This document shows, piece after piece, positions 20,090 through 21,466 of a stretch of DNA of 64,000 nucleotides. The number at the start of each line of letters is the position of its first letter. Positions within the stretch are counted from its first letter, which is position 1. Position numbers and translations under genes: made by a program. Origin of the DNA: Bradyrhizobium sp. AZCC 1610 (GTDB taxonomy: Bacteria > Pseudomonadota > Alphaproteobacteria > Rhizobiales > Xanthobacteraceae). The DNA lies in the NCBI RefSeq assembly GCF_036924515.1, contig NZ_JAZHRR010000001.1, forward strand, positions 3,381,001 through 3,445,000, in the 5' to 3' direction. Below the pieces are notes generated by a model. That model saw only the letters and a program-made list of their open reading frames with translations. It made no database searches and was not told where the DNA came from.

Positions 20090-20166
20090 CCGGACCCGTC
20101 AGTAGCAACCCGGATGAGGCTAAAGCCCGTTGACGGCGGCGCCAAGCTGCCGCATAAGTCCGCGCC

Positions 20167-20238
20167 ATGACGACTTCGACCAAAGCGACCGCGAAAACCA
20201 AAGCACCCTCTGGGGGCTCGGGAGCCGTGCGCGCGTAG
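20167..20238 (+). CDS. Threonine/lysine-rich leader peptide of asd
   Basis: A 23-codon frame starts MTTSTKATAKTK and ends PSGGSGAVRA. Thr is at positions 2, 3, 5, 8 and 11 and Lys at 6, 10 and 12, so eight of the first twelve residues are amino acids made through Asd. The RNA shows three competing pairings. AGCACCC (20202-20208) pairs with GGGGGCT (20212-20218). GGGGCT can pair instead with AGCCCC (20265-20270). AGCCCCG also forms the terminator with CGGGGCT. Ribosome stalling on Thr or Lys codons would favour the antiterminator. A Shine-Dalgarno is not obvious. Confidence 0.7.
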   Translation: MTTSTKATAKTKAPSGGSGAVRA

Positions 20239-20263
20239 TCGAACGATCGCATTATCTGAACCG

Positions 20264-20295
20264 AAGCCCCGCCTGAAAAGGACCGGGGCTTTTTT
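20264..20295 (+). terminator. Attenuator terminator before asd
   Basis: AAGCCCCG (20264-20271) pairs with CGGGGCTT (20284-20291), followed by a run of T to 20295. It lies 42 bases before the asd GTG and 26 bases after the leader stop. It therefore ends transcripts before asd rather than after a full gene. Confidence 0.8.
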
Positions 20296-20336
20296 ATTGC
20301 CCGCAGCGTTGATGCTTAACCAAAGAGGATAGACCC

Positions 20337-21362
20337 GTGAGCCACGAACCCGTTGTTGCCATTGCCGGCGTAACCGGAGCTGTCGGCGCCGAATTCATCG
20401 CCACCATGGACAGGCGCGCCTTCCCGGTCGGCAAGCTCAAGGCGCTGGCCAGCGCCCGCTCGGCGGGCAAGACCATCGACTTCCGGGGCAAAAAGATCGT
20501 GATCGAGGAGCTCACCGAGCAGTCGTTCGAGGGTGTCGACATCGCGCTGTTCTCGGCCGGCGGCGGCATTTCGCGCAAGTTCGCACCGGCCGCCGTGAAG
20601 GCCGGCGCCATCGTGATCGACAATTCCTCCGCCTTCCGGATGGACCCGAACGTGCCGCTGGTGATCCCGGAGATCAATGCGGGCCGCATCCGGGAGCACA
20701 AGGGCATCATCGCCGTTCCGAACTGCTCGGCGATCACGGCGCTGGTGCCGCTGTGGCCAATCCACCGGCAAAACCGCATCAAGCGCATGATCGTATCGAC
20801 CTATCAGGCGGCGAGCGGCGCCGGCGCGGCTGCGATGGAAGAGCTCGTGGAATCAACCCGCGCCTATCTCGACGGCCGGCCGTTCACGCCAAAGGTGATC
20901 CCGCTCCCCTACGCCTTCAACGTCTTCAGCCACAACACGGCGATCGATCCCGAGACCGGCTACAACGACGAAGAAACCAAGGTGATCAAGGAGACCCGCA
21001 AGATCTTCGAGGACGAGCGGATCGCGATCGGCGTCACCTGCGTGCGCGTGCCGGTGCTGCGCGCGCATTCCGAGGCGATCACGTTCGAATGCGAAAGGCC
21101 GATCACCGAGGACGAGGTCCGCGCCATCCTGGTCAACGCACCGGGCGTCAAGATCGTCGACGACCGCGCGAAGAATTACTTCCCGATGCCGATCGACGCG
21201 TCAGGCCAGGACGACGTTCTCGTCGGCCGTATCCGCCGAGATCTCAGCGATGCCTCAGGCCACTCGATCTCGATGTTCGTGTCAGCCGACCAGCTCCTGA
21301 AGGGCGCGGCGTTGAACGCGATCCAGATCGCGGAATTGCTGCCGCAGCGCGCGATGGCGTGA
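20337..21362 (+). CDS. asd: Aspartate-semialdehyde dehydrogenase
   Basis: The 341-residue product reduces aspartyl phosphate to aspartate semialdehyde, the branch point to lysine (and diaminopimelate), threonine and methionine. The N-terminal NADP-binding GVTGAVGAEF and catalytic Cys in VPNCSAITALVPL are present. A substrate-binding VPVLRAHSEAITFE region follows, and an SADQLLKGAALNAIQ C-terminal segment. The GTG start has AGAGGAT upstream. The leader peptide and terminator just upstream suggest transcription attenuation by Thr and Lys supply. Confidence 0.93.
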   Translation: MSHEPVVAIAGVTGAVGAEFIATMDRRAFPVGKLKALASARSAGKTIDFRGKKIVIEELTEQSFEGVDIALFSAGGGISRKFAPAAVKAGAIVIDNSSAFRMDPNVPLVIPEINAGRIREHKGIIAVPNCSAITALVPLWPIHRQNRIKRMIVSTYQAASGAGAAAMEELVESTRAYLDGRPFTPKVIPLPYAFNVFSHNTAIDPETGYNDEETKVIKETRKIFEDERIAIGVTCVRVPVLRAHSEAITFECERPITEDEVRAILVNAPGVKIVDDRAKNYFPMPIDASGQDDVLVGRIRRDLSDASGHSISMFVSADQLLKGAALNAIQIAELLPQRAMA

Positions 21363-21372
21363 GGCTTGGAAT

Positions 21373-21466
21373 CGTAGGGTGGGCAAAGCGAAGCGTGCCC
21401 ACCATTCAGATTGACGGTGCAGAAAGATGGTGGGCACGGCGCAAGTGCGCCTTTGCCCACCCTACG
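21373..21466. repeat. Palindromic intergenic repeat, family A copy 1
   Basis: CGTAGGGTGGGCAAAGCG at the left is answered by GCCTTTGCCCACCCTACG at the right, with an inner pair GTGCCCACCAT/ATGGTGGGCAC. It forms one long cruciform-like hairpin of about 94 bases between the ends of asd and the convergent dehydrogenase. A second copy is at 55492-55586. Confidence 0.85.

Follow-up and report, generated by a model that had tools for sequence, protein, structure and literature searches.

The 129-base leader at positions 20167..20295 (plus strand) of the window, by which we mean the whole analysed stretch of 64,000 nucleotides from Bradyrhizobium sp. AZCC 1610, is very probably a ribosome-mediated transcription attenuator of asd2, a gene for an aspartate-semialdehyde dehydrogenase paralogue. 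This assignment follows from the conserved codons and the conserved terminator of the leader, from a computed switch and from the co-occurrence of leader and asd2. Comparison of related loci gives good support to the view that asd2 would be attenuated by the supply of Thr, and Lys is a likely second input. A sequence-only reading of the same DNA had proposed that asd is attenuated by Thr and Lys. The proposal is supported by the conservation of the codons in relatives; Thr would probably be sensed, and Lys, with less certainty, as well.

The gene asd2 (20337..21362, plus strand; 341 amino acids, GTG start) begins 41 bases after the T-run that closes the leader. Its product scores 433.8 bits against NCBIfam NF011456 (cut-off 223) and 405.8 bits against TIGR01296 (cut-off 324.2), and it matches solved Asd structures (PDB 2yv3, E = 2e-96). 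The target had originally been taken for asd itself. It does belong to the Asd family, but it is the second paralogue, and we therefore call it asd2 and keep the name canonical asd for the other copy in the same genome (G000:C1:7393588-7394580), whose product is 46% identical to Asd2. A terminator-like hairpin with a T-run, of six T, does precede the gene as had been claimed, at a distance of 41 and not 40 bases. The closest named relative is B. retamae (96%). In a sample of 198 genomes of the family, asd2 is carried by the 11 that belong to the genus, and one genome of another genus (G075) has an 81% identical copy; the remaining Asd proteins of the family, among the matches listed, are 43-51% identical to Asd2. 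One further copy, 62% identical, was found among 297 genomes sampled from the order (G275). An inverted repeat, GTAGGGTGGGCAAAGCG...CTTTGCCCACCCTAC, lies 3' of asd2 at 21374-21465, and a similar one is found beside asd2 at locus L082. In several species a palindrome of about 45 bases, GCATGATCCGGAAAAGTGG...CCGG...GATCATGC, is found in the stretch from the T-run to asd2 (L025, L032, L034, L041, L049, L058, L060, L067, L069, L075 and L077); in the 80 loci viewed, none is inside the attenuator.

The leader ORF, MTTSTKATAKTKAPSGGSGAVRA with a TAG stop, occupies 20167..20238 on the plus strand (ATG at 20167, TAG at 20236-20238) and has 23 sense codons. Its control codons 2-12 (20170..20202, plus strand) include five Thr, residues 2, 3, 5, 8 and 11, and three Lys, residues 6, 10 and 12, exactly as first described. 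Of 775 ATG-initiated small ORFs in the window (12-60 codons, both strands, nested starts included), it is the sole case with at least five Thr and at least three Lys in codons 2-13, and no such case occurs among the 10,296 small ORFs of ten first-order Markov resamples of the window. The stability of the leader as a whole (20168-20336) is ordinary, with a z-score of -0.98.

The pairing strands all lie on the plus strand. Strand 1, AGCACCC (20202..20208), pairs with strand 2 in the predicted fold without a ribosome. Strand 2, GGGGGCTCGGGA (20212..20223, with GGGGGCT at 20212-20218), lies within codons 16-19 and would be the 5' arm of the antiterminator. Strand 3, CCGAAGCCCCG (20261..20271, with AGCCCCG at 20265-20271), would serve both as the 3' arm of the antiterminator and as the 5' arm of the terminator, of which strand 4, CGGGGCT (20284-20290), is the 3' arm; together with the T-run (20290-20295) strand 4 makes up CGGGGCTTTTTT (20284..20295). 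All the hairpin motifs of the sequence-only reading, as well as its T-run, were located at these positions. One of its pairings, AGCACCC with GGGGGCT, forms when the fold of the window leader is predicted, yet relatives do not conserve the bases involved. The region has three of the features of a thr/his/trp-type attenuator: a run of control codons in a leader, mutually exclusive hairpins that depend on ribosome position (as computed) and an intrinsic terminator between the leader ORF and asd2. Rfam includes a threonine leader family. The Rfam search suggested for the leader, run on the window, gave no hit at the gathering threshold, and at E ≤ 1 it gave one model, a Xanthomonas sRNA (0.18) on the opposite strand; no Rfam model matches the leader.

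In the mechanism that we propose, transcription would begin at or just 5' of the leader ATG. With ample charged Thr-tRNA (and Lys-tRNA), the ribosome would reach the stop codon and cover strand 2, strands 3 and 4 would form the terminator, and asd2 would be off. With Thr or Lys in short supply, the ribosome would stall at about codons 4-12 and leave strand 2 free to pair with strand 3 ahead of the synthesis of strand 4, which would delay or prevent the terminator and allow transcription of asd2. We infer in this scheme where transcription starts, that the ribosome stalls, the direction of the response, the kinetic antitermination in some leaders and the sensing of Lys beside Thr.

In order to compare leaders we assembled 92 loci, namely the best 80 of 437 named loci (closest first), the own genome, G075 and ten genomes of the genus, of which two or more duplicate named records (L013 and L038). 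Of the sequences, 89 are unique. The leader ORF has 23 codons in 85 of these 89, 22 in two, 24 in one and 46 (within the extract) in one. We take the last to be L087, where strand 2 has lost one base and the shifted frame continues beyond the usual stop, so that this attenuator is a naturally occurring variant. Among the 85 leaders of 23 codons, which are closely related so that the counts are not independent, Lys-6, Lys-10 and Thr-11 are invariant, Thr-8 is found in 83 and Thr-5 in 82; at position 12, 58 leaders carry Thr and 26 carry Lys, and at position 13 these numbers are 43 and 16. Codons 14-23 of the same leaders contain no Lys, and Thr solely at codon 23, in four of them. Hairpins kept without the Thr/Lys codons had been named as the outcome that would speak against the sequence-only reading; in the relatives, the codons are kept. 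Several of the Thr codons show synonymous variation. The ratio of nonsynonymous to synonymous change, corrected for sites and crudely estimated along a minimum spanning tree that joins 53 unique ORFs, is 0.52 in codons 2-13 and 1.06 in codons 14-23, and suggests selection on the amino acids of the control region. A relative whose Asd2 is 62% identical (L111) retains TTKRTVKTT in its leader.

The terminator motif GGGGCTTTTT is present in all 92 extracted loci, as is the TTGAC of a -35 box, TTGACG in the window (20130..20135, plus strand). A -10 box, CATAAG (20153..20158, plus strand), follows after a 17-base spacer and is located 8 bases 5' of the leader ATG. The spacer is 17 bases long in 88 of the 89 unique leaders, and the gap to the ATG is 8 bases long in 87 of them. 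Because of this short gap, the asd2 leader transcript should start 0-2 bases 5' of the ATG, and the ORF is predicted to be leaderless. Our consensus promoter and terminator scan of the plus strand lists neither the leader promoter nor its terminator, as it requires a T as the last base of the -10 box and a loop of 3-8 bases.

The window sequence contains no Shine-Dalgarno motif 5' of the leader ATG, as would be expected if the small ORF were untranslated or non-regulatory and the terminator constitutive, with no reading of codons. However, the 8-base gap between the -10 box and the ATG fits a leaderless mRNA, such as that of S. meliloti trpL in the available part of PMC10117765. Furthermore, a constitutive terminator does not account for an amino-acid constraint that is seen in codons 2-13 and not in codons 14-23, for Thr/Lys small ORFs 5' of asd in 16 other families or for a computed switch that depends on where the ribosome is. 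We therefore consider it very improbable and retain attenuation by a translating ribosome.

The switch was computed by modelling the ribosome as a cut of the RNA at the ribosome's front edge and folding the remainder before and after strand 4. Before strand 4, strand 3 is paired above 0.9 in 87-88 of the 89 leaders with the edge at nt 24-45, where strand 2 is free, but in only 12 at nt 48, 25 at nt 54 and none from nt 60 onwards. If the edge is 12-14 bases past the A-site codon, as we assumed, then nt 24-45 corresponds to stalls at about codons 4-11, which is the site of the Thr/Lys codons. A switch, defined as strand 3 paired above 0.9 at edge nt 45 and below 0.5 once the ribosome has reached the stop codon, was found before strand 4 in 88 of the 89 leaders (the exception is L038) compared to 39 of 445 controls with shuffled middles. 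Without a ribosome (edge 0), strand 3 exceeds 0.9 in 25 of the 89 leaders, which are predicted to be antiterminated; its pairing is 0.96 in L015 and 1.00 in L026, and 0.08 in the window leader, where strand 2 is sequestered. At equilibrium with strand 4 and a stall at codon 11/12, the terminator wins in three of seven leaders (window 0.98, L002 0.97, L092 1.00) and loses in four (L015, L026, L025 and L028; 0.00-0.19). Hence, antitermination in those three would depend on kinetics, and in the window leader the switch must rely on the order of folding during transcription.

Compensatory changes in the stems had been suggested as a check. In 35 sequences, 99.0% of the cells of the terminator helix and of a small strand 2 hairpin are paired; when the partner is slid along, the figure is 29.5-55.9%. 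At columns 50/59, a swap of C-G for G-C in 12 of the 35 sequences retains the small hairpin and changes both amino acids. Such a two-sided change is seen at that pair alone, and it probably represents few events. We also averaged the energies of the strand 2/strand 3 duplex over five groups of 45, 24, 17, 2 and 1 sequences. The sums for own pairs minus those for swapped pairs are negative in nine of ten group pairs (-0.5 to -7.6 kcal/mol); the exception, at +0.25 kcal/mol, is the comparison of the window group with the japonicum type, and strand 2 of the window group pairs better with the strand 3 of every other group than with its own. In one example from each group, shuffled versions of strand 2 are clearly beaten in the window (15 of 500 as good), L015 (15) and the embrapense type (1), but not clearly in the japonicum type (138) and g45 (93). 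Co-evolution is best argued from L015 with L084, where strand 3 has gained two bases and strand 2 has changed correspondingly. The register of the antiterminator shifts by one base between groups.

At E ≤ 0.001, a covariance model built from 35 leaders, including that of the window, gives a match in 189 of the 195 Bradyrhizobium genomes, weakly in three, and in 180 of the 183 better assemblies; the loci from which it was built match by construction. In the own genome there is just one match below E = 0.01, at G000:C1:3401167-3401295, which is exactly the leader interval. Asd2 was sought in 13 of the 195 genomes. Three near-complete genomes with no leader match (G527, G607, G642) and the three with weak matches (G511, G520, G532) all are without asd2 and have canonical asd alone, at 45-46% identity. 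Among the three poorer assemblies with no leader match, G574 contains part of asd2 at the edge of a contig, G612 has pieces of lower identity and G638 has nothing. In G554 and G593, asd2 is present twice and the leader model has two strong matches, and G617 has asd2 and a broken copy. At the second asd2 copy of G554 (L278) no terminator motif and no leader peptide were detected by our script. Many genomes of the genus show two to four model matches, and of five second strong matches inspected, four are leaders 5' of another asd2 copy and the fifth is L278. Additional matches are not always second leaders, since G635 has four of them and one asd2.

This association also bears on the alternative that control in cis is secondary and that the short RNA left by termination, or the peptide, acts in trans; such roles in trans are reported for the S. 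meliloti trp leader RNA and peptide in the available portions of PMC7298713 and PMC10117765. In the genomes checked, however, the leader accompanies asd2, both being absent in six and both doubled in two, and the C-terminal half of the leader peptide is not conserved. Action in trans is thus the least probable of the alternatives, with very little weight, and attenuation in cis is preferred.

In the order-wide search, 68 of 297 genomes have a model match at E ≤ 0.1, with full-strength matches solely in the 11 genomes of the genus; that of G275 is weak (0.005). Eleven of the weaker matches, one of them in the own genome, were inspected as candidate Thr leaders, and none shows a Thr leader. Four weak matches in Bradyrhizobium (L283, L284, L285 and L290) coincide with another conserved small ORF, for example MIKCSRKLNRNHMTRFGWAVGGVVR and its variants, which in L283, L284 and L290 is followed by a terminator-like hairpin and a T-run. 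The next long frame in L283-L285 resembles what we take to be a molybdenum-hydroxylase large subunit of the CO/xanthine dehydrogenase type. It is possible that this small ORF marks a second attenuator family.

Thr/Lys small ORFs were also sought 5' of canonical asd in 134 loci, 100 of them newly collected and 34 from the family and order samples, which were drawn from the matches listed and are not a random sample; asd2 loci, another paralogue (L093) and a locus with a short flank (L099) were excluded, and L094 may be a paralogue. The rule (a small ORF no more than 400 bases away, with four or more Thr, one Lys or more and a minimum of six Thr plus Lys in 12 codons) was satisfied in 57 of the 134 loci, as opposed to none of their 134 reverse complements and 14 of 1,340 shuffles. 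The window's own family contributes one of its 36 loci, and other families 56 of 98. Such ORFs occur in 16 of these 23 other families, with none in f2, f4, f16, f29, f32, f46 and f48 (29 loci). Leaders visible by eye in L125 and L129 went uncounted, probably because of the length rule. A rule for Thr only is satisfied in 64 of the 134 loci vs 161 of 1,474 controls. In the own genome, hom and thrC have no Thr/Lys small ORF by the rule used, and the pattern ATG..Thr3..Lys has 28 forward and 39 reverse matches, with 15 and 15 for the reversed pattern.

Unlike in asd2, the last Thr is no more than two codons from the stop in 32 of 54 canonical-asd leaders. The longest T-run in the 30 leader tails viewed is 5 bases, and a platform other than a terminator is therefore likely at canonical asd. 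Masking of the Shine-Dalgarno motif is a candidate platform; when a stalled ribosome is modelled, pairing falls by more than 0.1 in 17 of the 54 leaders. Four loci of family f26 (L131, L139, L142 and L198) have very short leaders, with 81-84 bases from the stop of the small ORF to the asd match, and in L131 and L139 the ribosome-binding site of canonical asd bears GGGGAGAG(A/G)GGAG, with which CTCTCCCC can pair; a test of this pairing gave the expected direction in L131 and the opposite in L139, L142 and L198.

The Lys codons might be mere passengers, for example A-rich codons that leave the 5' portion of the leader free of structure, with Thr alone being sensed. Thr is indeed commoner than Lys in the first 14 leader codons (4-8 Thr, 1-3 Lys), and in the g45 relative L092 a Gln codon (CAG) replaces the first conserved Lys while the Thr codons are retained. 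Against this stand the invariance of Lys-6 and Lys-10 and the composition of the canonical-asd small ORFs, in which Lys makes up 29.5% of the non-Thr residues vs 1.7% in controls and Asn only 2 of 768. With one small ORF per family in 16 families, the Lys fraction is 0.346 and that of Asn, equally A-rich, is 0.004. Hence, the code looks like Thr plus Lys and not merely A-rich, and sensing of Thr alone is doubtful in comparison with sensing of both. We lean towards the view that Thr plus Lys leader peptides are a recurrent device of the order, in which the ribosome reads two end products and adjusts aspartate-semialdehyde dehydrogenase. It also seems somewhat probable that the codon signature is kept or reinvented as the platform changes, a terminator in asd2 and something else at canonical asd. 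With similar, moderate confidence we suggest that in Bradyrhizobium the Thr/Lys control sits on the second asd copy, the canonical asd of its own family being mostly without the signature.

The combined Thr and Lys control had been put forward as not known to be described for asd in this group. A precedent exists as a suggestion, for a Thr/Lys leader peptide in Sinorhizobium. In the part of PMC10117765 (2023) that was available, SEP5 of S. meliloti is a small ORF that has six Thr and three Lys codons and is located in the 5' UTR of what is termed an 'aspartate dehydrogenase' gene, which we suspect to be asd; its translation was seen by Ribo-seq and Western blot, and it is called possibly a leader peptide, conserved in Sinorhizobium only. 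Searches of the open literature turned up no other report of a Thr/Lys leader, and an earlier mention in Vitreschak et al. 2004 is possible. The main text of PMC4842269, on B. japonicum start sites, lacks 'asd', 'semialdehyde', 'attenuat' and 'threonine', PMC2965389 contains none of six sought terms, and 'asd' is absent from PMC1273637.

The asd2 leader would be an addition to a known type of attenuation, and the wider Thr/Lys pattern merits more attention than the single locus. Asd stands at the branch point to Lys (and the diaminopimelate of the cell wall), Thr, Met and Ile. If the proposal is true, a Thr plus Lys leader ties this branch point to both arms via one ribosome, without a repressor protein. 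This could be a reason for the two asd genes of Bradyrhizobium, one apparently without such control and one inducible by starvation. Recurrence in the order makes a general rule that can be tested out of what was a single suggestion from Sinorhizobium.

The asd2 leader shares with E. coli thrL and with the his, trp and ilv attenuators the codons for an end product, the exclusive hairpins and the terminator before the gene. In thrL there are also Ile codons. The asd2 leader differs from it in having Thr and Lys codons, a lone asd paralogue downstream and an apparently leaderless ORF. A thr leader with eight ACC codons appears in the accessible part of PMC1183508. S. meliloti trpL, as partly available in PMC10117765, is likewise a leaderless attenuator ORF of an alphaproteobacterium; the two are likened by description, trpL providing tryptophan control of trpE and the asd2 leader carrying Thr/Lys codons. 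SEP5, again by description, resembles the asd2 leader in its cluster of Thr/Lys codons in a small ORF of a 5' UTR, although the cluster is near the 3' end of the ORF in SEP5 and at the 5' end in the asd2 leader. The available part of PMC10117765 describes no attenuator structure for SEP5, whereas the asd2 leader has predicted attenuator hairpins.
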